Source: Caldilineaceae bacterium
GTDB taxonomy: Bacteria; Chloroflexota; Anaerolineae; Caldilineales; Caldilineaceae
Direction of reading: 5' to 3'
Length of the DNA: 17,917 nucleotides
Assembly (NCBI GenBank): GCA_022842065.1
Contig: JALHQH010000092.1
Location: forward strand, 1 to 17,917
Part shown: piece by piece, positions 1 through 15,602 of the stretch
How positions within the stretch are numbered: the stretch's first letter is position 1
Layout: every line of letters begins with the position of its first letter
Notes under the pieces: model-generated
What the model saw: the letters and a program-made list of their open reading frames with translations, nothing else
Told to the model about the DNA's origin: nothing
Database searches by the model: none
Translations under genes and position numbers: made by a program

Positions 1-68
1 TCAGTAGCGTGATAATATCCATCTGGAGCTTTCCTGTTTGCTAGATTTCCAATGTGAGAGTTGAAAAC

Positions 69-494
69 CTATCTTACTCGAAAGCTCCTTTTCTGCCTCA
101 TTTTGGCGAAGGTATTGATGACAATGACATATTTGTTATATTCGTGTAACTTGGCGATTAATGGCATGTAGTCGCTGTCGCCAGAGAGAATCACCATCGT
201 GTCGATGTAAGGTTTTGTGATTGCTGTTTCCAGCGCATCAACCGTGAGTTTAATATCTGCTGAGTTTTTACCTTTGTCTTTGTGGCTTGGCATTTCGATT
301 AACTCAACCCCACTCGCCATTAAGGCATGTTTATAGCTTGCGTATCTACCCCAGTCGGCATAGGCCCTTTTGACAACCAAGCGTCCCCGGCTTTTAAGCC
401 CGTTGATCAACTGTTTTGCATCAAAGGATGGTCTATCCCCAAAATTTTCAAAGTCGATAAAAAGTGCTTGATTGTTAAGTTTGCTCTCAGTCAT
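69..494 (-). CDS. NYN-domain (LabA/DUF88-type, PIN-like) nuclease, C-terminus aberrant
   Basis: Predicted 141-residue metal-dependent ribonuclease of the NYN family. Visible motifs are FIDFEN (Asp14, Asn17), KNSADIKLTVDAL (Asp80, Asp86) and ILSGDSDYMPLI (Asp106, Asp108); together these give the acidic active-site cluster. The ATG at 494 is preferred over a TTG at 497 because AGGAGA at 501-506 lies 6 nt upstream of the ATG. After residue 126 (KYVIVI) family members normally continue with a Gly/Val-rich strand and a Ser/Thr motif; here the tail is instead a basic 15-residue stretch ending at 69. The frame offset by one stays open for about 39 codons to a TGA at 3-1, so a frameshift near 120 is possible, although that tail is not recognisable as NYN sequence either. 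The gene is transcribed away from the sigma/CHAT cluster, and no functional link is evident. NYN identity is clear; whether the product is active is not. Confidence 0.75.
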   Translation of the reverse strand: MTESKLNNQALFIDFENFGDRPSFDAKQLINGLKSRGRLVVKRAYADWGRYASYKHALMASGVELIEMPSHKDKGKNSADIKLTVDALETAITKPYIDTMVILSGDSDYMPLIAKLHEYNKYVIVINTFAKMRQKRSFRVR

Positions 495-585
495 CAAGGA
501 TCTCCTATTTCATCTATGCCAATGTTTATCGTGCGCTTGGCTTGAAAACCATCGCTTTTCTTTACGCTGCGACTGGAAAGACCTA

Positions 586-599
586 CGGTTTGCAAACCG
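586..599. repeat. 14-bp perfect palindrome CGGTTTGCAAACCG
   Basis: The sequence equals its own reverse complement over 14 bases with no loop, which fits a dimeric regulator site better than an RNA hairpin. It lies about 90 bp upstream of the NYN start and about 165 bp upstream of the sigma-gene promoter. Its function is not known; a chance palindrome or a remnant of a dispersed repeat is possible. Confidence 0.35.
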
Positions 600-728
600 C
601 GCTCACTTTAGGCGTAACGTGAACGGTGCCCAGGGTGAAGGGGGCGGTGACATTAAGAAAACGAACTACTTGGTAACGTTGATGTCAGCTACAGCAAGTT
701 TTAATTGCTATGTGAAATCTCTGCTGGT

Positions 729-820
729 ACACTTAGCACAAATAAAGCATGGTTGCTTTGAGAACTGTAGCGTAGTATATTATGCTCTTCTAAAGAGAAT
801 ACAGTAGGACATTTAGCACA
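729..820 (+). repeat. Direct repeat ACAYTTAGCACA flanking the promoter
   Basis: ACACTTAGCACA at 729-740 and ACATTTAGCACA at 809-820 differ at one base and start 80 bp apart. One copy lies 12 bp upstream of the -35 box; the other lies about 20 bp downstream of the predicted transcription start. That arrangement is typical of operator pairs, or of a promoter element read by a special sigma factor, but no regulator can be named. Confidence 0.35.
753..781 (+). promoter_or_regulatory. Putative sigma-70 promoter for the sigma-like gene
   Basis: TTGCTT (753-758) and TATATT (776-781) are separated by exactly 17 bp and match the housekeeping consensus at 4 and 5 of 6 positions. The predicted start near 788 gives a leader of roughly 118 nt before the ATG at 906. 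The near-identical 12-mers at 729-740 and 809-820 bracket it. Confidence 0.45.
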
Positions 821-905
821 TTAAATTTTGTGTCAAAATCCTGACTACCCTATCCCAATACGCATACCTGCCAGCTAAGAGATGTTACCGAAATGAGGCC
901 GCACT

Positions 906-1937
906 ATGTCTACGCCAGTAGTCCCCCTTGACGTTTTTGGCGCGCTTTGCCAAACGGTTGCCAACACTTATCCTACCCAACGTACTCATGGTTATCGGGT
1001 CACCGAAAATCAGCTCTTCTTCTTTACGACAGCTGCAAATCGCCCGCGTCACACCAAACAACTTAAGGGTGACACGCAATATGCTGACGATCTGGTGATA
1101 GGATGGCAAGACGAGAGCGCTTTCTTGGCCGGAGCACAGGCGGTAGCGGCACAGCTTGATGGGCTTTCCGGTGAAGTGGTGAGTGGCCTTAAACAACAAG
1201 ATCCGGTCGAGTGGAGCGCGTTTTGGACGCAATTACAGTGCCTACAACGCCAGCTCCCCAAACAATTTGACTATCAATTGGATCAGGGCACACAGGATGA
1301 AGCGCTTGCGCAGTGTTGTGTTAAAGTCTTCAACCTCATCCAGTCGATGCCGGCGGGTGAACTGCTTGATGGGCTGCCCGCGATCCTCCCTTATACCCGC
1401 CAGCGCTTACAACAACCTGGTGCCCTCTACACTTTCCGTAAACCATTTTTGCATTATATCTTTCGAATTTTGCAGAACGAGTTCCGCCGTGCATTGCAAA
1501 AGTGGACCAAAGAGTCGGAGAAGGTTGGTTCGCTGGAAGAACTGCTGGCACTGGGGATTGAGCCTGTCTTCGCTGAGGCGGATTTGGGCGAAGTATATAG
1601 CGCCGCGGAAATGCAAAGGCTGCAAACCCAATTGCAACAGCAGTTAACGCGCCTCTTGGCAGCCATTGAAACGTTGCCGCGTAAACGGCGCCAGGTCGCT
1701 GCTTATACATTGGCTGGTCGCCCACAATTTTGGTCGGCACTAAAGCTGACTGAAATACCTGCCCCCGCCTGGTATCCCCTACCAGAAAAATATCTGACGG
1801 ACCGCCAAATCGCGGCCGAATTAGGTATGACTGATAACAGCGTCCGCGCTCATCGCAATCATGGGTATCACGCGCTCGTTGCCATCGACCCGGCGTTCGG
1901 CCACCTTTTCTCAATCCTAAGTGCGGTTAACTATTAG
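906..1937 (+). CDS. Divergent ECF-like sigma factor (sigma-70 family)
   Basis: A 343-residue protein with an unusual N-terminal extension of about 100 residues followed by a sigma-70-like core. Region 2 appears as QDEALAQCCVKVF (130-142, like the 2.1/2.2 'AEDLVQETF' helix) and then FRKPFLHYIFRILQNEFRR (177-195, like the 2.3/2.4 '-10' helix), followed by a SLEEL linker near 209. Region 4 appears as LPRKRRQVAAYTLAG (257-271) and a helix-turn-helix, LTDRQIAAELGMTDNSVRAH (297-316). GAGG at 895-898 lies 7 nt before the ATG. Typical ECF factors are about 180-200 residues, so this is a long, divergent form. It probably directs RNA polymerase to a small regulon. It lies 136 bp upstream of the anti-sigma-like gene and next to a TPR-CHAT protease gene, so regulated release by proteolysis is a reasonable inference. 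A non-sigma DNA-binding protein is the main alternative. Confidence 0.65.
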   Translation: MSTPVVPLDVFGALCQTVANTYPTQRTHGYRVTENQLFFFTTAANRPRHTKQLKGDTQYADDLVIGWQDESAFLAGAQAVAAQLDGLSGEVVSGLKQQDPVEWSAFWTQLQCLQRQLPKQFDYQLDQGTQDEALAQCCVKVFNLIQSMPAGELLDGLPAILPYTRQRLQQPGALYTFRKPFLHYIFRILQNEFRRALQKWTKESEKVGSLEELLALGIEPVFAEADLGEVYSAAEMQRLQTQLQQQLTRLLAAIETLPRKRRQVAAYTLAGRPQFWSALKLTEIPAPAWYPLPEKYLTDRQIAAELGMTDNSVRAHRNHGYHALVAIDPAFGHLFSILSAVNY

Positions 1938-1996
1938 CGCTGAACCCGATTTATGTTCGAGGCGGTGCGAACGAAAATTTAAGCGTGGCCAGAAAT

Positions 1997-2025
1997 TTAA
2001 TGTAAAGCTGATGGTTGGGTATATA
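1997..2025 (+). promoter_or_regulatory. Possible promoter before the anti-sigma-like gene
   Basis: TATATA (2020-2025) is preceded at 17 bp by a weak TTAATG (1997-2002). It would allow independent or self-regulated transcription of the second gene. The -35 match is poor, and read-through from the sigma-like gene is equally likely. Confidence 0.2.
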
Positions 2026-2073
2026 GGTAAATAATGAGTGAACTATTCAATGGGGAATTGTGAGGAATGGAAC

Positions 2074-2808
2074 ATGACAAGCGAAGCGGGAACGCCAGAA
2101 ATGGCTGCGGCTGAGGAAGAATTTGATTGGGCGCACTTTTCCCAATCACTAATCGCGTATGTGTACCTGGAGCTAAATCGGCAGGCGGCGGCAGAAACCT
2201 ATCCTGATGTGGCGTTTCAGATTTTAACTTCAGTAGAATGTCAAGCTGCCTATCAACACGAGTTACGCCGGCAAAGTTTGGCACAGGTTGATGCCGCCGC
2301 GATCAAGCAGATCCAAGCACTTTTGCCCAGGCTACAACAACCTGCGGCACCGGTTACGCCTGCGCCGGACTGGCTAGAGCGGACAGTCGAACACGGTCGC
2401 GCCTGGCTAGAGGCCGGTACAGAACGTTGGCGCCAAGTGCAACTTTCGTTGGCTGGTCTACAGTTTGGCCCAGCCGGACAACTGGCGACAACAGGTCTGA
2501 TGAGCGAAGACCAGCCAACAGCAGCCCGTGCTGAAGGCGCGTTACAAGTCGCCCCGCCTGAGGCCAGTTTTGAACTGACATTGGTTGTGTTGCCGGATCG
2601 GACGGCTGCCGAACCTAACCTCTATCAAGCCGAAGTAATGTTAACCCTGCTGGATCGCTTTGGTGATTATGCTGGGATCGATCTTTATCTCTTTTGGGAT
2701 GGAACAACCCAGCAAGCGACGACGGATCAACTGGGTCGCGCGCTCTTTACGGCATTACCACAGACGCAAATTAAGGCCATGAGCCTGATCGTTATTTTGC
2801 CCGACTAG
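2074..2808 (+). CDS. Soluble anti-sigma-like / possible CHAT substrate protein
   Basis: A 244-residue protein that I do not recognise by name. The N-terminal part (about 15-75) has the spacing of an anti-sigma helical domain: SLIAYVYLELNRQAAAE, then a helix, then SVECQAAYQHELRRQ, resembling the 'YVDGEL...C..C...L' pattern but lacking the zinc-binding Cys/His set. A Pro/Ala-rich linker follows. The C-terminal part (about 170-244) is beta-rich, with LYQAEVMLTLLDRFGDYAG, TTDQLGRALFTALP and a final hydrophobic strand. That pattern recalls carboxypeptidase-regulatory-like beta-sandwiches fused to some anti-sigma proteins. There is no membrane segment, so it should be cytoplasmic. ATG 2074 is chosen over GTG 2038 and ATG 2050 because GAGGA at 2062-2066 sits 7 nt upstream. 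Its position between a sigma factor and a TPR-CHAT peptidase suggests it holds the sigma factor and may be cleaved; this is inference. Confidence 0.5.
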   Translation: MTSEAGTPEMAAAEEEFDWAHFSQSLIAYVYLELNRQAAAETYPDVAFQILTSVECQAAYQHELRRQSLAQVDAAAIKQIQALLPRLQQPAAPVTPAPDWLERTVEHGRAWLEAGTERWRQVQLSLAGLQFGPAGQLATTGLMSEDQPTAARAEGALQVAPPEASFELTLVVLPDRTAAEPNLYQAEVMLTLLDRFGDYAGIDLYLFWDGTTQQATTDQLGRALFTALPQTQIKAMSLIVILPD

Positions 2809-5278
2809 GCTTACTGGCTGCTGAATGGGCCGGCTCACCAATGAGCAGATATGGTGCCCAAAAAAAAGGATGACTAAAAAGTTTACGCTCGCGCTTGTGC
2901 GGTGTGGTCTGCTGTTGCATGCGCCCAATCTGCTCTAACTGCGCTTCAATCTCAGTTGCTGCGACATCCGCCCACCTGCCGATCCAAGCATAGGCTTCAC
3001 CATAGGTAAGGCTACGTAGCCAATTTTGGGCAGCAGCCAACGCACCGGCCGGATCAAAGCGTTGCTGCGCTGCTTCTGTTTCATGCAGGTGAGCAAAAAA
3101 ATATTCGAGGAAGAGGCGGGTCGATAGTTCATGCACCTTCCAGGCTGTGACCAATAATGCCGGCGTACCGGCGTAGAGCAGGGCACGACTAAGACCCAGA
3201 ATCTCGTCTCCACGCAAGATTTGGCTTCGTCCCGTTTCACAGGCGGCCAAGACAACCAAATCGGCATTCAGTCGCAGCTCGCGCAGGATTTCACTGGCTT
3301 GTAGCTGGCCATCGCTCAACTTAAGATAGGAAAGCATAGGGTGCTGTGGATTGAAAAGCGCATGCCCTAAAAAGCAGACGATGCGATAGCCGCCACTTTG
3401 CGCCAAGAATGCCGTCCGATTGGCCGCCTGCGCTTGTAAGCTGGTATTTGCCGGCTGGTTCCCTAAGGTTGCGGCTGCGCCTTGGGTCAACTGCAAAGTT
3501 TCATCGGTGGGCGCAATCGCCAACAGCCCGCGCTGCGCGGAGGGGGTTCGGCCTAAACAATAGCGAAAGAGGACAGTCGCGCTGGGTGCATAGACGACAC
3601 GGCGGCCGGTGGCCAACAAGGGCGGTGCCTCAACTCCCTGCGGCATCAGCGCGCCGAGCGGGAGATAATTAAGGGGCCCGGTGGGAATGATATAGATCGT
3701 TTTCGCTTGCTGTAACTGCTCCCACACGGGCGCAAGTAGGGCATCGTAAAGCTGTGGGAAAATCGTTAGCCGCCCTAAACGGCCTTCGTTGTCTGGTACT
3801 AGCCCATGTCGCTTGCCTTCGACGTAATCTGCCAATATACCTTGTAGCCAGTGGGTGGTCAGGCGCGCGTCAAGTGGTTGACATTGTACACCCTGGCGCG
3901 TGGCAACCAATAGATGTAAATGATGAGCTTGATCACTAACATAGGCTAATAAGATGGCATCTTCGGGTAACAGCGCGCAAATTTGGGCGGCCGTTAACGC
4001 CGCGACCTGCGCTAAGCCGGCTAGTTCACTGTCCAGCAATTCAATCTGCCGATCCAGCGCCGTTAACGCGACTTCCAAATCGGTCACGGCATTGATGGCT
4101 ATTTCTTCCATCGTCTGTTCTGTAACATAACTTTGTTCTAACTGTTGGCGGAGTGCTGCGCGCCGTAAGAGCAGCGCGTCCGGTAACGGCTGGCGGGGCA
4201 GTGGTTGCTCTCCTGCCAACAGATCGGCCAACACGCGGGCACGCGCCCGCTCGGCTGCTGTCAATGCTGCTGCGCCGTCCTTTTGTGCTAAATAGAGGGT
4301 CAGTGGCGCACTGTAGATGAAATCAGTAATGGCGCGATAGTTAATCTGCGTTGTTGGCGCTGTTAGCTGGTTGCGTAAGGATTCGGTGTGTTTGATGGCA
4401 GTAGCATAGGCAGCGTGTGCTTGTGCCTGATCGTTACGCTGTGCAAAGAGATTGCCTAAGCGGGTCCACGCTTCTGCCAAGTGAAGTTCATCCGCTTCCT
4501 GGTTTAGTAAGGTAATGGCCTCTACCAGCGCTTGCTCTGCTGCCTCTAATTGACCTTGTGGTTGTAGGACTAGCGCCGCCAGATCGGCAAGGCCAACGGC
4601 TCGGTTATAAACACTTTCGGCTTGTTGACAGTGGGCAAAGAGTGCATTAAAGGCATCTGTTGCTTGGGTATATGCGCTTTGTAACGCATAGATACGGGCA
4701 ATGCCATGCCAGTTCTTTGTTAGTTCCTCCTGGCTTGTCGTCTTATTGTTAAGTGTTTCCAATAAGGTGATAGCTGTCTGATGATACCGCAAAGCATGTA
4801 CTAGCGATTGGCTGGACGCAAAGCCTTGTTCTACCTGAAAGGTAAACATGATCCCTAGGTTGTTATAGACCCGTGCTAATCCCAAGGGATAGTCAGCCAG
4901 CTGATATCCCTTGATGGCGGCCTGATAAAGGGTTTCCGCAGCATGCCATTGGCCCAACTCATCCAGTTGAATTGCTAGTGCCAATGACGTGCGCGCACGT
5001 TGGATCGGTTCTAATTCCTGAGCCAGTAAATCACGCCATAGCCGCTCTGCTTCATCAAAACGGCGCTCAGCCATAAAGAGCAGCACGGCCTGATAGTGTT
5101 GATGTGCCTGTTGTACACGTTGAGCCGGTTGGGCTTGTAAGATGGACAGTAAGGCGCGACATGCTGTAAAGCGTCGATCGGCAAGTGCTTGCAGAAAGTA
5201 GCTGCTAAAGCGCGCCAAACCAGCTTCTTCCTGGCTGATTAACTGTGCTTCGAGTTCGATGAAAATTTGTTGTTCCAT
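2792..5278 (-). CDS. TPR-CHAT caspase-like cysteine peptidase
   Basis: An 828-residue protein with an N-terminal array of TPR helices (about 40-345; for example NNLGIMFTF, AEAWTRLGNLFAQRNDQAQA), an AERARARVLADLLAG helix (about 338-355) and a charged helical linker. The CHAT domain covers about 505-820. Its typical strand IIPTGPLNYLPLGAL is followed by the catalytic His639 in CFLGHALFNP and Cys680 in VVLAACETG, then GDEILGLSRALLYAGTPALLVTAW. Both dyad residues are present, so the peptidase should be active. CHAT proteins are caspase relatives that cleave partner proteins when an associated sensor is triggered; TPRs usually serve as the sensor or docking surface. There is no signal peptide or membrane segment. 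The stop overlaps the 3' end of the facing anti-sigma-like gene by 17 bp, and a promoter lies at 5316-5345. The family call is firm; the substrate is inferred from context. Confidence 0.92.
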   Translation of the reverse strand: MEQQIFIELEAQLISQEEAGLARFSSYFLQALADRRFTACRALLSILQAQPAQRVQQAHQHYQAVLLFMAERRFDEAERLWRDLLAQELEPIQRARTSLALAIQLDELGQWHAAETLYQAAIKGYQLADYPLGLARVYNNLGIMFTFQVEQGFASSQSLVHALRYHQTAITLLETLNNKTTSQEELTKNWHGIARIYALQSAYTQATDAFNALFAHCQQAESVYNRAVGLADLAALVLQPQGQLEAAEQALVEAITLLNQEADELHLAEAWTRLGNLFAQRNDQAQAHAAYATAIKHTESLRNQLTAPTTQINYRAITDFIYSAPLTLYLAQKDGAAALTAAERARARVLADLLAGEQPLPRQPLPDALLLRRAALRQQLEQSYVTEQTMEEIAINAVTDLEVALTALDRQIELLDSELAGLAQVAALTAAQICALLPEDAILLAYVSDQAHHLHLLVATRQGVQCQPLDARLTTHWLQGILADYVEGKRHGLVPDNEGRLGRLTIFPQLYDALLAPVWEQLQQAKTIYIIPTGPLNYLPLGALMPQGVEAPPLLATGRRVVYAPSATVLFRYCLGRTPSAQRGLLAIAPTDETLQLTQGAAATLGNQPANTSLQAQAANRTAFLAQSGGYRIVCFLGHALFNPQHPMLSYLKLSDGQLQASEILRELRLNADLVVLAACETGRSQILRGDEILGLSRALLYAGTPALLVTAWKVHELSTRLFLEYFFAHLHETEAAQQRFDPAGALAAAQNWLRSLTYGEAYAWIGRWADVAATEIEAQLEQIGRMQQQTTPHKRERKLFSHPFFWAPYLLIGEPAHSAASKPSRAK

Positions 5279-5315
5279 AGTTATCGGATTGAGTGGCGCT
5301 TACTATTGGCAACGT

Positions 5316-5345
5316 ACTATACCACAGAGTGTCACTGATGTGTAA
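5316..5345 (-). promoter_or_regulatory. Putative promoter of the TPR-CHAT gene
   Basis: On the minus strand TTACAC (5345-5340) and TATAGT (5321-5316) are separated by 18 bp, giving a start about 30 nt before the ATG at 5278. No strong Shine-Dalgarno sequence precedes that ATG, so CHAT translation may be weak. The 99-bp gap 5279-5377 also serves the divergent gene at 5378. Confidence 0.4.
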
Positions 5346-5377
5346 CCAACAAAACTAGATGACAAAAGGAGAAATGG

Positions 5378-8300
5378 ATGTTTACCCGCTACCATTCGTG
5401 CTCACGAAATTGCTCTAACTTCACGCACAAGTTCCTGCCGCCTCTACTGCTGATGAGTTTACTGGTGGGAAGCCTCAGTTTCGCGCTATGGCTCTCTTTC
5501 TACAGACCACTCCTTGCATCTCCCATTCATCGACCACCAGCGCAAAAGCAAGCCGCACAATGGTCGATTACGCCGGATCGCTTCCTGCCTGGCTATGATG
5601 AAACCTGGAGTATCGCCTGGGGTGATGTTGATAATGATGGTGATCTTGATCTGGTCACAGGTAATGATGATGAACCATTGCTTTTGTATCGAAATCAGGA
5701 TGGTGTGGTAGAAGAAGTGCCGTTTTGGCGTTCAACTCTCTTCCATTCGGCGCGAAGTATTGCCTGGGGTGATGTGAATGGTGACGGCTATTTGGATTTG
5801 GCCGTTGGTGACTTTAACCGTGGCTTGGTCGTTTACCGCAATCTAGGCGGTACACTAACCGACGCCCCCTGGACCTCAGTCGACATCAACTATATACGCA
5901 GTATTGCTTGGGGCGATGTGAATGGCGATGGTAAACTTGATCTAGCCGCCGGCATTAGTGGTACGGTAAAGATTTTCCTAAACCAGGGTGACATCTTGGC
6001 GCCAACGCCTCATATCTCCTTAGGCATTTTTGGCCAGCGATCATTTACGAGTGTGGCCTGGGGTGATGCCAATAATGATGGGTATCTTGATCTTGCCCTT
6101 GGCACCTCTGCAAATAACACCATCTTTTTTAACGACCAAAACGGTGAGTTGTCTGGCGGTCCTCCTTGGAGTTATCGGGAATTAGGGAATACACGTGCTG
6201 TTGCTTGGGGTGATATGGATGGCGATGGCCAACTCGATTTGGCTGTGGGCAATGTTGATAGCCCAAGCAAAGTTTACCGCAATCTCGGCAACCGTGAGTT
6301 TGACACTCTTCATTGGCGTACGAATGTCAACGATAGAACATCTAATATTGCCTGGGCTGATGTCGATGGTAATGGTTATCTGGATCTGACGATTGCTAAC
6401 GCTTTTCTGAGTGGTGCGGAAATACAACCCATTCGCATCTATCGCAATCTTACTGGCACGCTACAAATATCCCCTACATGGGAAGCACCCGATGTGGAGA
6501 ATACGCGCGCAATTGCCTGGGGCGACATGGATGGTGATGGTGATGTCGACCTCGCTGCCGGTCGCCTGGGACCAGATACGATTTACCGAAATCGTGGCAG
6601 CACCATGCGACCGACCATTGATTGGCGTTCGCCAATGACCGATGATACCTACAGCTTAGCTTGGGGTGATGTAGATAGTGATGGCGCACTTGATCTAGCG
6701 GTTGGTAATGGCCCAGAGCGGCCTAATCTGTTGTATCACAATCGCAATCAGCAACTCGTTAATACGAACTGGGCACCGCTCGCTGATCGCTTTACCCATG
6801 GGGTTGCGTGGGGCGATGCCGATGGTGACGGCGATCTTGATCTCGCCATTGGCAATAGTGGCTTCCCACAGAGTCAAGGAGCTGTTAATGAACTTTACCT
6901 TAATAACGGTCAAGGATTAGACGATCGCGCTGCTTGGAGCTCAGATGATCAGGATAGCACGTTGAGTGTGGCCTGGGGTGATGTAGATGGTGATGGCGAT
7001 CTCGATTTAGCCGCTGCCAATTTCCAAGGGCCTAACAAGGTGTATATTTATGAAGATGGCTCTTTGACAAATAGTAAAACCTGGTCATCTGCCGATAGTG
7101 ATCGAACTGCAAGTGTGGCCTGGGGTGATGTGGATAATGATGGTGATCTAGATTTAGCTGCCGCCAACAGTGGCGCACCCAGCAAGCTCTATTTGAATCA
7201 ACAAGGAGTGCTAGATCGGGTGGCGGCCTGGTATTCTACTGACGTGCATGATTCACAAAGTGTGGCCTGGGGCGATATGAATGGCGATGGCTATTTAGAT
7301 CTGGCTGTTGGCAACGCAGGCCAGCCAACGAAAGTTTTCTTGAACGTGCGCGGTCAGTTACAGACAGTTGCGACTTGGTTCTCTGCCGATAGTTTTAATG
7401 CACGAAGTGTGGCCTGGGGTGATGCAGATGGCGATGGCGATCTTGATTTGGCCATTGGGAATTTTGGCCAACCGATTAAGGTGTATTTGAATGAAGGCGG
7501 ATTCTTATCGTCTGTTGCTGCATGGAGTTCCAATACCAGTAACACAACCCGTAGCGTTGCTTGGGGAGACATCGACGGTGATGGTGATTTGGATTTAGCT
7601 GTAGGTAATCGAGATAATGAAGTAACCAATGTATCCTACACCGAAATTTATCTGAATCAGCGCGCGGCTTATCTTGGCCGCAGCGGTCCGACTGTTCACC
7701 CCCCTAGCATCGCGATTCATCTGACCAGCGACCCGGTGCAGACCTTTAGCAACCGGCTCTCAACCGCACTCGCGCCGGCGAACTTCTATGCAACACCGGC
7801 CATCCGCCAGGGGCGGGTAATTCCCTTAACCTATTCGCTCTTTCATCCTCTCAGCGAACCTGTGGCCGAAGTCCGCGCTTATTACTCACTCAATGGTAGT
7901 TTTTCTGGCCCGCGCAGCACGTGGCAGGAGGCGAAAGCAACATCCACAACCCAGACGACCGATCTGACAACTGCCCCCTATCCTGCCAGGACCGCCGCCA
8001 ACACTCACACCTTTGGCTGGGATCTGTTGGCTAGCAACTTTTTTGGTCAGAGTGACAATGTGGTGGTTCGTATTGAAGCCTTGCCGGATTACACGCCGCG
8101 CCCTAATTCTGCCCCAGGCTTTTTTCAGTATCCATTGGTTGCTACACAAACTTTCCCTTTCCGTGTGCGCGGCACCCAGATCCGGGTCGTTGATCCCGCT
8201 GGGCAACCCGTTAGCAACGCCTTGCTCTATCGCCTGCCGGCTGACCGGCCTGATCAGAGTCATCCGATTGGTAATGATCAGGTGACCTTTCGCACCATGG

Positions 8301-10738
8301 ACGATGGCTATTTGCAGGGGCGCGGTGAATTGGCGCGCAATGATCGACTGTTGGCGCTAAAGCCAATCCATGCAACCGCGTATTACACCCTTTATCACAC
8401 GAGTGGAACACCAACTGAATCGGGCGTCGATAGTTTTGTCGTTACCACCGGCGGTGTGCAGACGCTAACCGTCTCTGCTGATAATCCACTGCTGCTCTTT
8501 GATCTCATCGTTTCGCTGGAATGGGAAGAAGGCAATAACACCCCGTTTCTCAGCACCCTGCGCCGTGATCTACTCGAAAGTTCCAAAGCGCTTTATGATT
8601 GGAGTAATGGCCAGATCGCTTTGGGCAAAATCACTATCTACCAAGGGCGCGACCATTGGGACGAGGCCCACATCCAACTCTTAGCCTCTAACCAGGTGCG
8701 GCCTAGTGCCAACCGGGGCGGGATCGTCACTACACCGACTATTCTGACTGATCCCAGGCTGACCGAGCCGATTACGGCCACGCGTGGCATCGTGCGGATT
8801 GGGCCGAATTGGACGCGCTACGGTGATAGTGATCCCAATTTCATTCATGACTGGGCGCGCGTGTTGGCCCACGAGTTGGGACACTACCTGCTCTTTTTGG
8901 AGGATAGCTACCTGGGGTTGGATGAAGAGAATGGCTTGCTAATCCCCGTTGATACCTGTCAACATACGGCGATGACCGATCCTTATGAGGATGAGGGTAG
9001 TGAATTTCGGTATGGCCAGCATGGTGATGGGGATTACTTGCTCTGGCAGCATGAATGTGCGCATACCCTGGCTGAGTTGCCCGATTGGGAACTGATCCGC
9101 CTTGTGTACCCAGCGCTACACAGCCCGCCACCGGTCAACCCAGGGCCGGGCAACATGCCTTTCGTCTTTACCACCGTCCAAGTGATGGCTCTGCCTACCA
9201 CCGCTGCCCAACGCTTAGTCAATCCGTTGATTACCATCGGCCCGGCTGAGCCGCAACTGCTCAATGGCCGTATTTATCTGCAACGGCCTGGCCAACACTT
9301 GCTTGATCTGGGCAAGTATACCGGTAACGAAGTGTTAACCCGCGGGGCCTATGAAGGGGACACGCTCTGCATCTTTGGGCGTGACCAGTACGCCTGTAGC
9401 CGGTTGTCGAACAGTCAACTGGCTAGCTTCCCTCTCAAACCATTGTGGGCTTCGTCAATTGCGGTGACGCCGACCAGCACACGCACGTTGACCATTTGGG
9501 TTGACAGTAGCGCTGGCCCCCAGGTGATTGCTACCATCTATCCGGATGGCGCAACCCCTCAACAAGTCACATTCGCAACGGGCAGCCCACAGCCGATCAC
9601 ACTTGATCGGCCCGCCGTTGAAGCGTTAGTCGAAGTAACCAGTGTGGATGGCAGTGAGCGTTTTATTACCGGCTATGCGCTTGGTTCTGGCCCTGGCCGC
9701 CTGCGTAGCTTCGATGGCCCTGGCCGCCTGCGCAGCTTCGATGGCCCAGTGAGCAGCAGCGATGGCGGCGCAGTACTCTATCCGCCGTTGACGATGCCGA
9801 AAACAACCTTTATCGCTTTACAACTGGCGACGACATTGCCGGATCTCCCGCTGGGGCTTGTTCCGCTGGGCCGCGCCTATTATGTCCGGCCAAGTACACC
9901 TATTACCAACTATCAGGGGGGAAGTATCGCCTTCCAATACCTCGGGCGCGATGTGAGCCAAGCCTATTTACCGGAAGAACATCTCGCAGTCTACCATTGG
10001 GATGGGGCTACATGGACCTGTGTGTCATGCCCGCAACAGGTGCAGAACCTGGAACAAAATATTGTCTCGTCACCTTTAGTGGGCGATGGTCTCTATCTCT
10101 TGGCTGGCTTTCAACTCTCACTGAAGGGCGCAGAACTAAACCCAATCGGCTACCCGCTTCCTTATTCACTCCCAGTGACGCAGGCACTGGCTGCCCTCGA
10201 AGATTTTTACACCGTGATTTACCATTACGATGTCAACCAATCTAGCCAACCTTGGACCGCTTACGGGGTCAATGCGCCGGCTTGGGTCAACACATTGCTC
10301 GAACTAAAGCCTAATCAAAGTTACTGGCTCTATGTGACGGAAACCATGCGTTGGAGCATTGTTGACGCGGCTAATCATACGACTATAGGTACTGCCCTGC
10401 AACCACCGCCAAGCATCTTCTATGGTGTGATAACACCAACGGCGACTTTCACCCCCAGCGTAGATCTGCCCGTCTCTGCCACTGTCAATAATCAGCTCTG
10501 TGGTCAGTCGCGTACACAGCTGATTGATGACCAAATTGTCTATGTGATCGTTGTGGGGTGTGGCAACATGGACCAGCCAGTTGCCTTCACGGTCGCTGAT
10601 CGCAATCTCGCCACAACGGCAACCTGGGACAATCGCCGAATCCAGCAATTTGGCCTGAGCTTAGATAATTCATCAACAGGTGTGATAGATCCTCCACTTA
10701 ATCATCACCTTTATCTGCCCTTGATTGCAAACAGATAG
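5378..10738 (+). CDS. Giant exported FG-GAP/VCBS repeat protein with HELGH metallopeptidase motif
   Basis: A 1786-residue surface or secreted protein. A hydrophobic segment at about 25-45 acts as signal peptide or anchor. Residues about 75-765 hold 14 FG-GAP/VCBS repeats with the core AWGDxDGDGDLDLAxGN, a calcium-loop beta-propeller unit. Beta domains follow, including a carboxypeptidase-regulatory-like stretch near 935 (IRVVDPAGQPVSNALLYRL). A zinc-peptidase motif HELGHYLLFLEDSY has His1165, Glu1166 and His1169; the HExxHxxxxxxD form resembles CLCA-type peptidases more than classic metzincins, which have a third His. MTDPYEDE and ECAH motifs follow it. More beta-rich sequence extends to the terminus LYLPLIANR. 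Start choice: AGGAG at 5367-5371 lies 6 nt before ATG 5378, although an ATG also occurs at 5374. It is probably adhesive with a proteolytic module. It is divergent from the TPR-CHAT gene and ends at a shared hairpin. Architecture is clear; catalytic activity is inferred. Confidence 0.85.
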   Translation: MFTRYHSCSRNCSNFTHKFLPPLLLMSLLVGSLSFALWLSFYRPLLASPIHRPPAQKQAAQWSITPDRFLPGYDETWSIAWGDVDNDGDLDLVTGNDDEPLLLYRNQDGVVEEVPFWRSTLFHSARSIAWGDVNGDGYLDLAVGDFNRGLVVYRNLGGTLTDAPWTSVDINYIRSIAWGDVNGDGKLDLAAGISGTVKIFLNQGDILAPTPHISLGIFGQRSFTSVAWGDANNDGYLDLALGTSANNTIFFNDQNGELSGGPPWSYRELGNTRAVAWGDMDGDGQLDLAVGNVDSPSKVYRNLGNREFDTLHWRTNVNDRTSNIAWADVDGNGYLDLTIANAFLSGAEIQPIRIYRNLTGTLQISPTWEAPDVENTRAIAWGDMDGDGDVDLAAGRLGPDTIYRNRGSTMRPTIDWRSPMTDDTYSLAWGDVDSDGALDLAVGNGPERPNLLYHNRNQQLVNTNWAPLADRFTHGVAWGDADGDGDLDLAIGNSGFPQSQGAVNELYLNNGQGLDDRAAWSSDDQDSTLSVAWGDVDGDGDLDLAAANFQGPNKVYIYEDGSLTNSKTWSSADSDRTASVAWGDVDNDGDLDLAAANSGAPSKLYLNQQGVLDRVAAWYSTDVHDSQSVAWGDMNGDGYLDLAVGNAGQPTKVFLNVRGQLQTVATWFSADSFNARSVAWGDADGDGDLDLAIGNFGQPIKVYLNEGGFLSSVAAWSSNTSNTTRSVAWGDIDGDGDLDLAVGNRDNEVTNVSYTEIYLNQRAAYLGRSGPTVHPPSIAIHLTSDPVQTFSNRLSTALAPANFYATPAIRQGRVIPLTYSLFHPLSEPVAEVRAYYSLNGSFSGPRSTWQEAKATSTTQTTDLTTAPYPARTAANTHTFGWDLLASNFFGQSDNVVVRIEALPDYTPRPNSAPGFFQYPLVATQTFPFRVRGTQIRVVDPAGQPVSNALLYRLPADRPDQSHPIGNDQVTFRTMDDGYLQGRGELARNDRLLALKPIHATAYYTLYHTSGTPTESGVDSFVVTTGGVQTLTVSADNPLLLFDLIVSLEWEEGNNTPFLSTLRRDLLESSKALYDWSNGQIALGKITIYQGRDHWDEAHIQLLASNQVRPSANRGGIVTTPTILTDPRLTEPITATRGIVRIGPNWTRYGDSDPNFIHDWARVLAHELGHYLLFLEDSYLGLDEENGLLIPVDTCQHTAMTDPYEDEGSEFRYGQHGDGDYLLWQHECAHTLAELPDWELIRLVYPALHSPPPVNPGPGNMPFVFTTVQVMALPTTAAQRLVNPLITIGPAEPQLLNGRIYLQRPGQHLLDLGKYTGNEVLTRGAYEGDTLCIFGRDQYACSRLSNSQLASFPLKPLWASSIAVTPTSTRTLTIWVDSSAGPQVIATIYPDGATPQQVTFATGSPQPITLDRPAVEALVEVTSVDGSERFITGYALGSGPGRLRSFDGPGRLRSFDGPVSSSDGGAVLYPPLTMPKTTFIALQLATTLPDLPLGLVPLGRAYYVRPSTPITNYQGGSIAFQYLGRDVSQAYLPEEHLAVYHWDGATWTCVSCPQQVQNLEQNIVSSPLVGDGLYLLAGFQLSLKGAELNPIGYPLPYSLPVTQALAALEDFYTVIYHYDVNQSSQPWTAYGVNAPAWVNTLLELKPNQSYWLYVTETMRWSIVDAANHTTIGTALQPPPSIFYGVITPTATFTPSVDLPVSATVNNQLCGQSRTQLIDDQIVYVIVVGCGNMDQPVAFTVADRNLATTATWDNRRIQQFGLSLDNSSTGVIDPPLNHHLYLPLIANR
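5609..7665 (+). repeat. Fourteen in-frame FG-GAP-encoding repeats, 147-bp period
   Basis: The tryptophan codon of each AWGD/AWAD motif begins at 5618, 5765, 5909, 6059, 6206, 6353, 6518, 6662, 6809, 6974, 7121, 7268, 7415 and 7562. Nine of the thirteen steps are exactly 147 bp (49 residues); the rest are 144, 144, 150 or 165. Each unit carries DxDxDGxxDL calcium ligands. Repeat 6 is the most divergent (AWADVDGNGYLDLTIANA). The regularity suggests expansion by tandem duplication and two seven-bladed propellers. Confidence 0.9.
9689..9742 (+). repeat. 27-bp in-frame tandem duplication
   Basis: Units 9689-9715 and 9716-9742 differ at one base (T/C) and are followed by five bases of a third. The protein reads GPGRLRSFD twice in a row. 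It is a recent slippage product that keeps the frame of the FG-GAP gene. Confidence 0.9.
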
Positions 10739-10749
10739 CGCCAAAGTCA

Positions 10750-10784
10750 ATGTGGCGCACAAGGGGAGCACTTGTGCGCCACAT
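10750..10784. terminator. Bidirectional hairpin between convergent genes
   Basis: A perfect 14-bp stem (10750-10763 with 10771-10784) encloses a 7-nt loop. It lies 12 bp after the FG-GAP stop and 2 bp after the stop of the facing hydrolase gene, so it can end both transcripts. There is no long T-tract on either side. Confidence 0.7.
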
Positions 10785-10786
10785 CG

Positions 10787-11692
10787 CTAATTCCCACCCT
10801 CCACCCGCGCCAAAAAATCCGCCAACACGGCCATATACCGCTCCGGCTCCTCGGCATGGGCCAAGTGCGCGCTCTCCTCGAAAACCACCCACTTGGACCC
10901 TTTGATTCCCTGCTGGACTGTCTCCGCAATTAACGGCGTGGCTTCGTCATAGCGCCCGGATGTGATCAGCGCCGGCGCGTTGATTTCGCCCAACCGTGCG
11001 GTGACATCCCAATCTTTGATTACGCCGACGACATGGAATTCGCTTGGCCCGTTCATGGTATGGTAGACCTGGGGCCATTCGCCTAGTTTGGCAAAGGCGC
11101 GCTGCACATAGGGTGGATTGGGCACGACGCGGCAGACATAACGGTCGTAGAAAACTTGCATGGCGGCCAGATATTCGCTGCTGTCGGTGGTGCCGGCGGC
11201 TTCATGGCTGGTTAAGGTCGCTTGCACGTCGGCGGGCAACTCGCCGCGCAGCCGGTTCGCCTCGGCCAGCCACAAGGCCATACTCGATGGTGAACTGGCG
11301 ATGGTGATGCTGGCCACGCCGGTCGGCTGGGTGAGCATATATTGCATGGTCAACATGCCGCCCCACGATTGGCCCAATAGATGGAGCTGATCCAACCCCA
11401 ACGCGCGGCGCACTACATCAACCTCTTCGACAAAGAGTTCAACCGTCCACAGCGCTGGGTCATCGACATGGGTGGAATTGCCGCAGCCCAGTTGATCATA
11501 GAAGATCACCTGCCGCCCGGTGGCCGCCATCGCTTCGAGCGATGCAAGATACTCATGGGGGACGCCCGGCCCGCCATGCAGACAAAGCAGCGGTAACTTG
11601 CCCGCGTCCGCCTGCGTGCCGACAATGCGATACCAAGTTTCGTAGCCGCGAAAAGAAATCGTCCCTTCTCGGACAGGGTAAGGTGTAGACAT
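10787..11692 (-). CDS. pip: Proline iminopeptidase-like alpha/beta hydrolase (peptidase family S33)
   Basis: A 301-residue cytoplasmic serine peptidase predicted to remove N-terminal residues, typically proline, from short peptides. Key motifs are HGGPG at 39-43 (oxyanion hole), YDQLGCG at 65-71, the nucleophile GQSWGG with Ser109, Asp249 in SGRYDEATP and His276 in ESAHLAHAEEPE. Length and spacing match proline iminopeptidase / tricorn-interacting factor F1. AAGGAG lies 8 nt upstream of the ATG at 11692. It is the last gene of the minus-strand operon after the peptide permeases, so it probably acts on imported peptides. A related hydrolase specificity cannot be excluded, because the family is broad. 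Confidence 0.85.
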   Translation of the reverse strand: MSTPYPVREGTISFRGYETWYRIVGTQADAGKLPLLCLHGGPGVPHEYLASLEAMAATGRQVIFYDQLGCGNSTHVDDPALWTVELFVEEVDVVRRALGLDQLHLLGQSWGGMLTMQYMLTQPTGVASITIASSPSSMALWLAEANRLRGELPADVQATLTSHEAAGTTDSSEYLAAMQVFYDRYVCRVVPNPPYVQRAFAKLGEWPQVYHTMNGPSEFHVVGVIKDWDVTARLGEINAPALITSGRYDEATPLIAETVQQGIKGSKWVVFEESAHLAHAEEPERYMAVLADFLARVEGGN

Positions 11693-11712
11693 GGAAAGTC
11701 TCCTTGGTTACT

Positions 11713-11774
11713 GAAGGGGTGACAAGGTGACAAGGTGAACTTCAGCTCTCACCCTGTCACCTTGTCACCCCTTC
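11713..11774. repeat. 26-bp inverted repeat of the GGGTGACA octamer family
   Basis: Arms 11713-11738 and 11749-11774 pair over 26 bp with one mismatch around a 10-nt loop. The arms are built of octamers GGGTGACA/AGGTGACA. It lies between the dppC stop and the pip start, so in the operon mRNA it would form a strong hairpin that could attenuate or protect the transcript. It is the same family as the repeat at 13763-13873. Confidence 0.85.
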
Positions 11775-11782
11775 GTCATTGG

Positions 11783-12670
11783 CTAATGGTCACGTTGTTT
11801 TGGATCAAACTGCGCCCGTAGCCCGTCGCCGACCAGGTTGAAGGTGATGACGGTGATCATAATCGCCAAGCCCGCAAAGATCGAGACATAGGGGGAGAGC
11901 AGTAAAAAGGAGCGCCCTTCGGCCAGCATCGATCCCCAATCCGGTTCGGGCGGTTGAATGCCGAGGCCCAGAAAGGAGAGCGCAGCAATATCGAGGATGG
12001 CGTAGGCGAGATCGACGGAGGAGTGGACCAGGATCGGTGACATGACATTCGGCAGCAGGTGGCGAAAGAGAATGCCCCGATTTTCGACCCCGGTGGCGCG
12101 CGCTGCTTCGATGTAAAGCTGATGCCGTTGTACCAGGGTCACCGAACGCACCACACGCGCAATCGCTGGAATATAGACAATCCCCAGTGCCATCACCGTG
12201 TAACTTAAGCCACGTCCAAAGGTCGCCACAATCAGGATCGCTAGCAACAGGGCGGGGAAGGCGAGCAACATATCGAGAATGCGCATGATAATGTTGTCAA
12301 CCTTACCGCCAAAGTAGCCGGCGATCAACCCAAGCGGCACGCCGATTAACTCGGAGAGGAGCACCACGACGAGTGCCCCGGCCAAGGTTGGCCGCGCGCC
12401 GTAGACGATCCGGCTCCAGGTATCGCGTCCCTGTTTGTCGGTGCCTAGCCAGTGCTCACTGTTGGGGGCTTGCAAGCCATTACGCAAATCCTGCGTGTAG
12501 GGATCCGCCGTGGCGACCAACGGTGCGGCCACCGCCATCAGCGCGATCCCAAACAAAATCAGCGCGCTCAGCACGGCAAGCCGATTGCGAAAAAAGGGCG
12601 CACGCCAAATCGAACGGCGCGTTTCTTTGATTTCAGGGTTAATAACGCGAGTCGCGAGTGTTTGTTGCAT
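11783..12670 (-). CDS. dppC: ABC peptide transporter permease, DppC/OppC type
   Basis: A 295-residue inner-membrane permease of the dipeptide/oligopeptide/nickel class. The N-terminus (WRAPFFRNRLAVLSALILFG) has the usual DppC form, with the first membrane helix at about 30-52 and then a periplasmic stretch ending in LGTDKQGRDTWSRIVYGAR. Five further hydrophobic segments follow. The cytoplasmic EAA loop EAARATGVENRGILFRHLLP (about 185-205) would contact the ATPase. Length is normal. No clear Shine-Dalgarno sequence precedes the ATG at 12670. It is separated from dppB by 146 bp filled by a large inverted repeat. The partner ATPases are not in this window. Confidence 0.93.
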   Translation of the reverse strand: MQQTLATRVINPEIKETRRSIWRAPFFRNRLAVLSALILFGIALMAVAAPLVATADPYTQDLRNGLQAPNSEHWLGTDKQGRDTWSRIVYGARPTLAGALVVVLLSELIGVPLGLIAGYFGGKVDNIIMRILDMLLAFPALLLAILIVATFGRGLSYTVMALGIVYIPAIARVVRSVTLVQRHQLYIEAARATGVENRGILFRHLLPNVMSPILVHSSVDLAYAILDIAALSFLGLGIQPPEPDWGSMLAEGRSFLLLSPYVSIFAGLAIMITVITFNLVGDGLRAQFDPKQRDH

Positions 12671-12702
12671 GAATGTTAACTGTCAGGGTTATGAAGAGAT
12701 TG

Positions 12703-12808
12703 ATCCACGAAGCGGGTGCCCATTGGGCGCGAAGGCACACGAATAAATACACAAGCTTTTGTTGCTCTTCGTGTCTCTTCGCGCCCAATGGGCACCCGCT
12801 TCGTGGAT
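12703..12808. repeat. 32-bp perfect inverted repeat between dppB and dppC
   Basis: Arms 12703-12734 and 12777-12808 are perfect reverse complements. Inside the 42-nt loop the flanking bases 12735-12743 and 12768-12776 pair over seven more positions, so the hairpin has nearly 40 paired bases. The ends contain CCACGAAG/CTTCGTGG, a motif I recall from dispersed intergenic repeats. Its size and position suggest a MITE-like or REP-like element inserted in the operon. Confidence 0.9.
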
Positions 12809-12816
12809 AAGTACTG

Positions 12817-13755
12817 TTACTCAAAACGAATGCGCGGATCGACCACGCCGTAGAGCAAGTCGGTCACCAGGTTGAGCAGCACATAGATCGTCACCAGCAC
12901 CAGCACGCAGCCCTGGATCAGCGGGTAGTCACGGTTTTGGATGGCGTCGGTGATCAGGCTACCCAAGCCGCCCAGGCCAAAGGTATATTCCACCAGCACG
13001 GTGCCGACAAAGAGAAAGCCCAGTTGCAGGCTGGCAACCGTCAACACCGGGATCATGGCGTTGCGCAGCGCATGGCTGAAAACAACGGCGCGCAGTGATA
13101 ACCCTTTGGCCCGCGCCACCGTAATATATTCGCTCTTGAGCACTTCGAGCATCGCCGAACGGGTCATGCGGGCAGTTAGCGCTAACATGCTCAAGGCTAA
13201 TACACCGGCCGGGAGAATGAGATGGTAAAGTTGATCCCAGAAGCCTTCCCCTGCGCCCAGGGCCGGCAACCAGCCCAAGCCATAGGCAAAGACCAGAATG
13301 CCGATGATCCCGCTAAAAAAGACCGGTGAGGAAACACCCACCAGGCAAATGAGCGAGGCGATATAGTCAATGGGGCTGTTTTGATAAAGGGCAGAAAGGA
13401 CGCCCAACGGTAGGGCAATCAGCAACGCAAACGTCGTGCTTAGGAAGATCAGCTTCAAGGTCAAGGGCAAGCGCGCCAGAATCAAATCCGCCACCTGCTG
13501 CTTGAGCCGGAAGCTCTCGCCCAGGTCACCTTGCAATGCGTTCCCTACCCACAAAAAGTATTGGGTGATCGGATCTTTGTCGAGCGCATACTTGGTGCGG
13601 ATTGCCTGCAAGGTTTCCGGCGTGGTGCGCCGGCCCCCCACCATGATTAGCGCCGGGTCGCCTGGCGTCAACCGCACCAATTCAAAGGTGACAAAGGAGG
13701 TAAAGAGTAAGATTGGGATCAGCGCCAAGAGGCGACGGGTGATGTATGTAGACAT
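12817..13755 (-). CDS. dppB: ABC peptide transporter permease, DppB/OppB type
   Basis: A 312-residue inner-membrane permease. It begins MSTYITRRLLALIPILLF, the usual DppB first helix, followed by RLTPGDPALIMVGGRRTTPE and a long periplasmic stretch. The EAA loop VARAKGLSLRAVVFSHALRN lies at about 208-228, and the C-terminus LLYGVVDPRIRFE is classic. The ATG at 13755 is chosen; an upstream in-frame ATG at 13830 would add 25 residues that are only translated octamer repeat. It pairs with DppC to form the channel and with DppA upstream for substrate delivery. Confidence 0.93.
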   Translation of the reverse strand: MSTYITRRLLALIPILLFTSFVTFELVRLTPGDPALIMVGGRRTTPETLQAIRTKYALDKDPITQYFLWVGNALQGDLGESFRLKQQVADLILARLPLTLKLIFLSTTFALLIALPLGVLSALYQNSPIDYIASLICLVGVSSPVFFSGIIGILVFAYGLGWLPALGAGEGFWDQLYHLILPAGVLALSMLALTARMTRSAMLEVLKSEYITVARAKGLSLRAVVFSHALRNAMIPVLTVASLQLGFLFVGTVLVEYTFGLGGLGSLITDAIQNRDYPLIQGCVLVLVTIYVLLNLVTDLLYGVVDPRIRFE

Positions 13756-13762
13756 TGGTACC

Positions 13763-13873
13763 TGACAAGGTGGCAGGGTGAAGGGGTGAAGGGGTGACAG
13801 GGTGAAGGGGTGACAAGGTGACAGGCTCAATTACCGTGGCACCCTGTCACCCCTTCACCCTGTCACCTTGTCA
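13763..13873. repeat. Octamer tandem repeat array forming a large hairpin
   Basis: Seven consecutive octamers run from 13768 to 13823: AGGTGGCA, GGGTGAAG, GGGTGAAG, GGGTGACA, GGGTGAAG, GGGTGACA, AGGTGACA. An inverted copy follows at 13840-13873. Outer arms 13763-13789 and 13847-13873 pair over 27 bp with one mismatch; alternative registers are possible. The inverted end overlaps the dppA stop codon, and the other end is 8 bp from the dppB start. Such short tandem repeats are common between genes in filamentous cyanobacteria and Chloroflexota. Confidence 0.88.
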
Positions 13874-15544
13874 ATTCTTTTTCACGTCTTTCAAAAACGC
13901 ATCCCAGTACCAGAGCGGGGTGATCGAGTAGCCGCTGAACATTTTGTTCATGGCTAAGGGCTGTTTGGGATGTTCGAGCACGATCCAGACTGAATCTTCG
14001 GCGATGATCGCTTGCGCTTCGATCATCAACTTGGTCCGTTCGGCGTTGTTGGTGAGGGCGTTTTGATCGTCGAGTAGCTTGTCAACGGTGGGGTTGACAT
14101 AGTTGCCAAAGTTCGAGCCACCATCACCCACATTGCGCGAGTGGAAGACCGGTAGCAGATTGCCGGCGGGATCCGGGAAATCAGAACCCCAGGCGTTGGA
14201 GAGAATGTCATAATCGCGCGCACCGCCAAAGGCCAGCGTAATCCCCTCTTGGAAGGTCACCTTTTGCACTTCGAGTTCATAACCCAGTTGGCGCGCTGCT
14301 TCCTGCAACGCCAGGGCCAGACCGAGGGCAACCGGATTTTCGTTGGTGGTGATCACCTTGCCATTCAGTTGATCAGCAACCCCCGACTCTTCCAGCAGTT
14401 GTTTGGCCTTTTCCAGATCGTAGGCATAGGTGGGCAGGGTTTCATAGGCTGCCGCCCAGGTCTCTTTCTCAAAGGTCCACAGGCGGGGCATCACATCAAC
14501 CGCACGGGCCAATTCCGCGGTGCCTTCGGCAAAGAGTGAGTTGAGCAAGGCTTCTTTGTCAACTGCATAATTAAGGGCCTGGCGTACCTTCACATTATCA
14601 AAGGGGGCACGTTGCGTGTTAAAGGCGATAAAATCGGTATAATAGCCGTCATTAAGTTGGACATCGACATGTTCCATTGCCATCACAATCGGCATCTGGT
14701 CGGCAGGAATGCCATCACCACCGAGCAGCAGATGGAGTTCACCCGTCTCCATGCCAGCGACACGGGTGGTCGCTTCGGGCAGAATCTTGTAGACAATGCG
14801 ATCCAAGTAAGGGCCACCGTTGGCCTTGTTCCAATAACCATCATACTTTTCGAGCACGACCTGGTTACCCGTCTCCCACGAGACGAACTTGAAGGGACCG
14901 GTGCCCAGCAGCCCACCTTCCGGCTTGCCAAAGGTCTCCTGGTGCGCTTCGTAGTAGGCTTTGCTGATCACGTGGCCGGCGGTGGTGGCCAAAGTATATT
15001 GCCAGAGCGCGTCGGGCTGCTTCAGGGTGACCTTCACGGTCCAGTCGCCGACCTTCTCGATGGTGTCAACACTGGCGTACATCCAGCCAAGGTAGGAGGC
15101 GGTCTCTGGATTGCGGGTGCGCTCCATGCTGAAGATCACATCATCCAACGTCATTGGGCTGCCATCCTGGAAGGTGACTCCCTGGCGCACGGTGTAGCTA
15201 TAGGTCAGCGGATCGGGATTCTCCCAGCTTTCGGCCAGCCCTGGCGCTAAGGTTTCGCCATTGGCCAGCGTCAGCAACGGCTCGGTGATCATGTTGACGA
15301 CGGGATTAGCGGTGAAATCGTAGGCAAAAGCCGGGTCAACGGCGACGATGTCACCTTGGAGGCCGACGACAAATTCGACTGTCTCGCCTGCTGCGGCCGT
15401 GTCCGCCGCACTTTCACTTTCGGCGGCCGGCGCTGCTGTCTCTTCGGTCGTGGCCGGCGCACCGCCACCACAAGCTGCGACCATTGCCAGGGCCAAGAGC
15501 AAGCTTAAGGTGATGAAACTACGCGACCAACGCTTTTTTTGCAT
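13871..15544 (-). CDS. dppA: Peptide/dipeptide-binding lipoprotein (SBP family 5)
   Basis: A 557-residue extracytoplasmic solute-binding protein that captures peptides for the DppBC channel. The N-terminus is a lipoprotein signal: basic KKRWSR, a hydrophobic stretch and lipobox VAAC with Cys25. An Ala/Glu/Thr-rich linker follows, typical of lipoproteins tethered to a membrane. Family 5 hallmarks are present: LAPGLAESWENPDPLTYSYT, VRQGVTFQDGSPMTLDDVIFS and GTGPFKFVSWETGNQVVLEK. The ATG at 15544 is chosen because AAAGGAGC lies 7 nt upstream and the signal peptide begins there; the in-frame ATG at 15598 would put 18 polar residues in front. It lies 132 bp after the amidase gene. Peptide, opine or nickel ligands are all possible in this family. 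Confidence 0.94.
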   Translation of the reverse strand: MQKKRWSRSFITLSLLLALAMVAACGGGAPATTEETAAPAAESESAADTAAAGETVEFVVGLQGDIVAVDPAFAYDFTANPVVNMITEPLLTLANGETLAPGLAESWENPDPLTYSYTVRQGVTFQDGSPMTLDDVIFSMERTRNPETASYLGWMYASVDTIEKVGDWTVKVTLKQPDALWQYTLATTAGHVISKAYYEAHQETFGKPEGGLLGTGPFKFVSWETGNQVVLEKYDGYWNKANGGPYLDRIVYKILPEATTRVAGMETGELHLLLGGDGIPADQMPIVMAMEHVDVQLNDGYYTDFIAFNTQRAPFDNVKVRQALNYAVDKEALLNSLFAEGTAELARAVDVMPRLWTFEKETWAAAYETLPTYAYDLEKAKQLLEESGVADQLNGKVITTNENPVALGLALALQEAARQLGYELEVQKVTFQEGITLAFGGARDYDILSNAWGSDFPDPAGNLLPVFHSRNVGDGGSNFGNYVNPTVDKLLDDQNALTNNAERTKLMIEAQAIIAEDSVWIVLEHPKQPLAMNKMFSGYSITPLWYWDAFLKDVKKN

Positions 15545-15602
15545 ATCGGATGCTCCTTTTATGATGAATTTGAAATAATTTTTATAGGACTTACGCAAGC
15601 GC

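Follow-up and report, generated by a model that had tools for sequence, protein, structure and literature searches.

A conserved four-gene module from a Caldilineaceae bacterium and a possible protease-gated sigma switch

The genes of the module

The DNA analysed here, referred to as the window, is a stretch of 17,917 nt from a Caldilineaceae bacterium (assembly GCA_022842065.1, contig JALHQH010000092.1, positions 1-17,917, forward strand). It carries side by side the genes for a sigma factor, a soluble anti-sigma-like protein (the partner), a TPR-CHAT protease and a large secreted-type, protease-like protein. As judged from sequence comparisons, these four genes form a real and conserved module. 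A preliminary description of this DNA had proposed a three-part, CRISPR-free switch; the anatomy of sigma factor, anti-sigma and TPR-CHAT protein stood, but the module has a fourth, secreted-type protease gene.

The open reading frame (ORF) at 906-1937 on the plus strand encodes a divergent sigma factor of 343 amino acids (aa), similar to the extracytoplasmic function (ECF) type and extended at its N-terminus by about 85-100 aa. The preliminary description had assigned regions 2 and 4 to this protein and had made its reading dependent on a sigma fold. Both points held, as the fold of region 4 is present and the profile alignment runs through region 2. The structure model of the window sigma is poor in region 2; in the relative L033, Sigma70_r2 was matched above the cut-off (E 1.2e-5).

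The partner (2074-2808, plus strand, alternative GTG start at 2038) comprises 244 aa and has no transmembrane stretch (maximal 19-aa hydropathy 1.39). According to the alignment and to hhalign, about residues 11-71 (2104-2286) represent a degenerate ZAS, that is anti-sigma, domain. The zinc motif HxxxCxxC of the ZAS anti-sigmas reads QILTSVEC in the window partner: the histidine is replaced by Q and the first cysteine by S, and the last cysteine is kept. Residues 11-61 align with eight stand-alone HxxxCxxC proteins and are homologous to them (hhalign E 6.9e-11, an E-value for a single comparison, like all hhalign values, and not an independent one because these eight proteins first turned up with the partner profile). 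All eight adjoin a sigma gene. Residues 100-241 (2371-2796) form a C-terminal beta-sandwich, which is weakly CarboxypepD_reg-like in relatives, with a match of only E 0.074 in the relatives P0010 and P0011. Thus the preliminary description of a soluble protein with an anti-sigma-like N-terminus and a beta-rich C-terminus was borne out.

Of 85 loci searched for a partner, 77 had one, corresponding to 76 places (L012 and L179 are one place). HxxxCxxC occurs within the first 130 aa of 40/77 partners (39/75 distinct sequences), compared with 0.245 expected from shuffles, and in several further partners the motif is differently spaced or degraded. Among ten partners scanned, four exceeded the zf-HC2 cut-off and six matched CarboxypepD_reg, all six below its cut-off. 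One partner (L030:4553-5407) matched BldD-like_C instead of zf-HC2 (E 2e-5, below the cut-off). From the motifs and the zf-HC2 and CarboxypepD_reg matches we infer that the partner is probably an anti-sigma with a transthyretin-like sandwich. Seven partners (L018, L019, L107, L112, L216, L217, and L220) have two tandem HxxxCxxC motifs, i.e., a doubled zinc anti-sigma domain.

The third gene (2792-5278, minus strand) is convergent with the partner gene and overlaps it by 17 bp. It encodes an 828-aa TPR-CHAT protease with a CHAT domain at residues 509-815 (2834-3754; PF12770, E 2.9e-42) and weak TPR matches. The residues His639 (codon 3362-3364) and Cys680 (codon 3239-3241), already described as intact, align with the catalytic residues of Csx29 in solved structures (E 1.8e-6 over 103 aa) and are invariant among close relatives (33/33). 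Of the 107 distinct sequences among 110 rows of a larger collection, all have the cysteine and 103 have the histidine. In the loci L100 (same place as L004), L097, and L101 a second, longer CHAT-domain protein of about 1000 aa follows the first one, with a small ORF in between.

The fourth gene (5378-10738, plus strand) is separated from the CHAT gene by a divergent intergenic region of 99 bp (5279-5377). Its product has 1786 aa, FG-GAP repeats (FG-GAP_3, E 1.1e-96, 14 stretches) and a hydrophobic N-terminus recognised by eye, which is the sense of the word secreted throughout. Embedded in it is a zincin-like domain (8240-9259) with the motif HELGHYLLFLEDSY, in which HELGH takes up residues 1165-1169 (8870-8884). 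Relatives were found in L001, L003, L005, L028, L095, L098, L102, and L239-L245. An alignment of eight domains, L003 included, has 29 invariant columns, among them H, E, and H of the HExxH motif of M64/CLCA zincins (8/8); the motif variants are HExGHY or HExGHH, with HELAHY in L001. The window domain has no Pfam match, and none of eight domains scanned reached a Pfam cut-off. In 4/7 relatives CLCA/M64 matches were weak (11-16 bits versus cut-offs near 26), and the L102 domain matched the unrelated RHS_repeat equally well. This seems to be a secreted-type zincin-like family without a name. In L095, L096, and L098, CHAT and the secreted-type gene are separated by an additional ORF (about 300 aa), which has no Pfam match at E 0.01.

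Conservation and layout of the module

Genomes were searched with the same-direction CHAT profile at a threshold of E 1e-100 or better. Matches were obtained in 11/246 genomes of Actinomycetota (the phylum of Rubrobacter taiwanensis), 23/247 of Acidobacteriota (the phylum of a Pyrinomonadaceae metagenome-assembled genome, MAG) and 43/301 of the phylum of a Chloroflexi MAG. We fetched 60 CHAT neighbourhoods from Actinomycetota, Acidobacteriota, and Chloroflexota (10/11, 21/33, and 29/55 match rows of the three phyla, mostly best first), leaving out rows near contig ends and G743:C14 (= L007). The 11 rows of set A5 were chosen after their neighbours had been seen.

Within 3 kb of CHAT, sigma and partner genes were each present in 53 of the 60 loci and occurred together in 49. 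A subtilase was present within this distance in 40 loci, and sigma, partner, and subtilase together in 31. The partC, partZ, sigC, and s8 profiles had been made from CHAT neighbours, and therefore only the count with the ordinary-sigma profile (sigi) is independent. This profile consists of ten sigmas of one genome, chosen by TIGR02937 regardless of CHAT; it detected a sigma within 3 kb of CHAT in 38/60 loci, compared with two matches in 310,851 bp of farther flank. The preliminary description had called for a search for the gene triplet across Chloroflexota, and the triplet is indeed conserved, outside CRISPR loci, with sigma and partner near CHAT in the 49 loci just given. The homologues P0005, P0011, and P0021 of sigma, partner, and CHAT each lie on a contig of 571,804 bp, a shared length that links them. 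Locus L001, from a MAG, matches the window in the identity, order, and orientation of all four genes. The module of L240 is situated on contig 1 of G118 (6,346,587 bp).

Two layouts were prominent among the 77 loci with a partner. In 64 the partner gene precedes CHAT and has the same direction, and in 54 of these it lies within 200 bp of CHAT; in eight it is convergent, in four downstream, and in one divergent. Counting upstream and convergent partners together, the gap is 200 bp or less in 62/77 loci. In eight loci with the order sigma-partner-CHAT the gene after CHAT matched Peptidase_S8 in seven cases and VanW in one (L018, where no sigma was found). The secreted-type member of the module is thus a subtilase in many same-direction relatives.

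In the convergent layout, the gene divergent from CHAT encodes a large secreted-type HExxH protein in the window, L001, L005, L028, L095, L098, and L102. The corresponding gene of L096 is truncated at the end of its contig, and the contig of L029 stops at this point. L003 is an exception, since its zincin-like gene converges on CHAT and its contig has no partner. Among the eight convergent loci, a sigma was recognised by the ordinary-sigma profile in L028, L029, L095, L096, and L098, by the window-type profile in L001 and weakly, with E 0.0026 to one sigma model, in L005.

As a held-out test, seven further convergent loci were used whose outer flank had been unseen beforehand. All seven have a divergent gene that matches the zincin profile with E-values between 2.2e-43 and 7.6e-48 and encodes HELGHH and, after it, DGY; in all seven CHAT keeps HG and C. 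A sigma was seen in six; L245 starts at the partner. As six of the seven loci are close relatives, this result stands for fewer than seven independent events.

Sigma, partner, and CHAT distances vary together: r is 0.67-0.83 in Acidobacteriota (16 loci) and 0.90-0.95 in Chloroflexota (26 loci). These values exceed all 500 permutations; shared descent alone could be sufficient for this.

Apart from the module, the window contains at 69-497 on the minus strand an ORF for a NYN-domain (LabA-like) nuclease (Pfam E 8.1e-27; weak PADLOC matches HEC-09 and NYN). The region 11783-16606 contains an acetamidase/formamidase gene (Pfam E 5.6e-62) and what are presumably the genes for dipeptide-type ABC transporter permeases and their binding protein.

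A proposed switch and its alternatives

We propose that the module functions as a sigma switch that works in the cytoplasm, is gated by a protease and is coupled to a secreted protease, and give this reading about an even chance of being correct. While the cell is at rest, the 2074-2808 protein would hold the sigma factor by its anti-sigma domain. CHAT, with its residues His639 and Cys680, would become active when some cytosolic trigger acts on its TPR array. CHAT would then dock on the beta-sandwich and cut the anti-sigma in a flexible stretch, as Csx29 cuts Csx30; candidate cut sites are partner residues 78-92 or 140-153, which are low-confidence loops of the model. Once free, the sigma would transcribe its regulon, to which the divergently oriented gene of the secreted protease would most likely belong. 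The circuit would follow the logic of Csx29, Csx30, and CASP-sigma, the RNA-guided trigger being swapped for another.

This mechanism is plausible. Cleavage by CHAT is a reasoned guess, because the counterparts are assigned by homology (CHAT, sigma) or by analogy (the partner, which is no demonstrated Csx30 homologue). Switching on of the secreted protease by the sigma factor is likewise a guess, and no shared promoter was found. In 5279-5377 and upstream of sigma in L239-L244 we noticed the stretch GCAACGTA or a similar one with a GT-containing triplet about 17 bases on; it is a possible ECF promoter and, as seen, not significant.

Several results weigh against the proposed switch. First, sigma or partner is absent within 3 kb of CHAT in 11/60 loci, and 20/60 lack a subtilase. 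The ordinary-sigma profile misses the sigmas of the window, L001, and L005, no sigma was found beside L102, and the co-variation of distances was not above permutations in Actinomycetota (8 loci). Second, upstream of the sigmas no promoter motif exceeded shuffles in three of four clades, and the motif of the fourth clade looked like a housekeeping promoter, so that control of the module by its sigma is unsupported. Third, the window partner resembles no solved chain by sequence. Finally, 4/107 distinct CHATs have proline in place of the catalytic histidine, with the cysteine kept, and three of these four (L095, L096, and L098, the fourth being L090) sit together with sigma and partner.

Of the alternatives, the one that survives best regards CHAT as an output of the circuit. 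Here the anti-sigma would sense a cytosolic cue, either a ligand on the beta-sandwich or, where the ZAS motif is intact, redox state or zinc, and the sigma would then express CHAT and the secreted protease as effectors. The review PMC8999054, in the portion drawn on here, states that soluble ZAS anti-sigmas respond to cytosolic, often oxidative, signals. The 40 partners with intact HxxxCxxC would suit such sensing, as would the operon-like arrangement of the same-direction loci, in which CHAT and subtilase follow sigma and partner. The window partner, however, lacks two of the three motif residues, the convergent loci have CHAT outside the sigma-partner transcription unit, and the CHAT gene adjoins the partner gene in most loci. 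We consider an output role of CHAT unlikely.

The CHATs without histidine raise another alternative, namely that CHAT is a non-proteolytic scaffold or sensor pulling the anti-sigma off the sigma by binding, in the manner of a partner switch. The four proteins are likely pseudo-proteases, as far as their residues tell, and some lineages may do without CHAT cleavage. Retention of the histidine in 103 and of the cysteine in all 107 distinct CHATs nevertheless argues for selection for catalysis in nearly all of them, which makes a general scaffold role improbable. Equally slight is the chance that no anti-sigma is involved and the neighbourhood proteases silence the system through direct degradation of the sigma, as proposed for ECF54 in section 3.3 of PMC8999054: the premise seems not to hold here because the partner carries an anti-sigma-type domain, and the subtilase and zincin proteins look secreted and could not reach a cytosolic sigma.

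Comparison with known systems

The proposed switch is modelled on the type III-E CASP/Craspase system. According to the part of PMC10028731 consulted, Csx29 cleaves Csx30 there; Csx30 binds CASP-sigma through its N-domain, and CHAT recognises its C-domain. Common to both are a TPR-CHAT protein with aligned catalytic His and Cys, an ECF-like sigma and a soluble two-domain protein with an anti-sigma-like N-part. However, Csx30 has 565 aa (same source), whereas the window partner has 244 aa and an N-domain of the ZAS type, the window CHAT is only distantly related to Csx29, and a secreted protease gene belongs to the window module. Matches of the window partner among PDB sequences at E 10 or less included no Csx30 chain, and the fold comparison covers mainly residues 106-244 of the partner. 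A simple repeat scan found no CRISPR array in the window; in 238 loci it gave nothing beyond two plain tandem repeats. Judged by ORF size alone, no ORF of the window besides the FG-GAP protein is as large as Cas7-11 (gRAMP) is known to be.

The ZAS (zf-HC2) anti-sigma factors share with the partner a homologous N-domain and a gene adjoining sigma; the window partner differs in being soluble, in its beta-sandwich C-domain and in the loss of two motif residues. PADLOC gave no match for sigma, partner, CHAT, or FG-GAP protein, and the defence role raised in the preliminary description is unsupported. The CalpL-CalpT-CalpS cascade of type III CRISPR systems reportedly also unites a protease, an anti-sigma-like substrate and a sigma; unlike the window module, it is said to use a Lon-type protease and a cyclic-nucleotide trigger. 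EACC2-caspase systems, associated with an ECF sigma and DUF1822 in the excerpt of PMC8195603 used here, likewise group a caspase-like protease with an ECF sigma and one more protein. Their caspase-side domains differ, and none of the eight window proteins scanned matched DUF1822.

The genomic context of ECF54, given in section 3.3 of PMC8999054 as carboxypeptidase, subtilase, and CHAT and described there without an anti-sigma, is shared by many of the same-direction loci, where the genes for sigma, CarboxypepD_reg-like protein, CHAT, and Peptidase_S8 are consecutive. In contrast to that section, the CarboxypepD_reg-like protein here carries an anti-sigma-type domain. We suggest that this protein is the carboxypeptidase of the review and acts as the anti-sigma. 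In the window the context is incomplete: CHAT is present and convergent, CarboxypepD_reg is matched only weakly and in relatives, and a zincin-like protein replaces the subtilase. The stand-alone circuit of the preliminary description thus stands in being conserved without a CRISPR array, but part of its neighbourhood had already been described as that of ECF54. Besides the papers cited here, the titles and abstract openings listed among open-licence papers contained nothing on an anti-sigma in the CHAT/ECF54 context or on the zincin branch.

If the proposed switch is correct, protease-gated sigma release by caspase-like enzymes is a general bacterial circuit and not a CRISPR speciality; a sigma group described without an anti-sigma gains one, these CHAT proteases obtain a concrete substrate and output, and an intracellular caspase-like enzyme is tied to secreted-type proteases across three phyla. 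Csx29, Csx30, and CASP-sigma could then be one version, captured by CRISPR, of a circuit that is older and widespread, being present in at least Chloroflexota, Acidobacteriota, and Actinomycetota. In this circuit a soluble ZAS/beta-sandwich anti-sigma would be cut by a TPR-CHAT protease, and the ECF54-like sigma freed in this way would turn on a secreted protease. For ECF54, the carboxypeptidase-like protein would be the missing anti-sigma, and the secreted partner of the window branch would be the unnamed zincin family. To this broader scenario we give somewhat less credence than to an even chance. The module of the window itself looks like a CRISPR-free counterpart of the protease-controlled gene switch of a CRISPR system.

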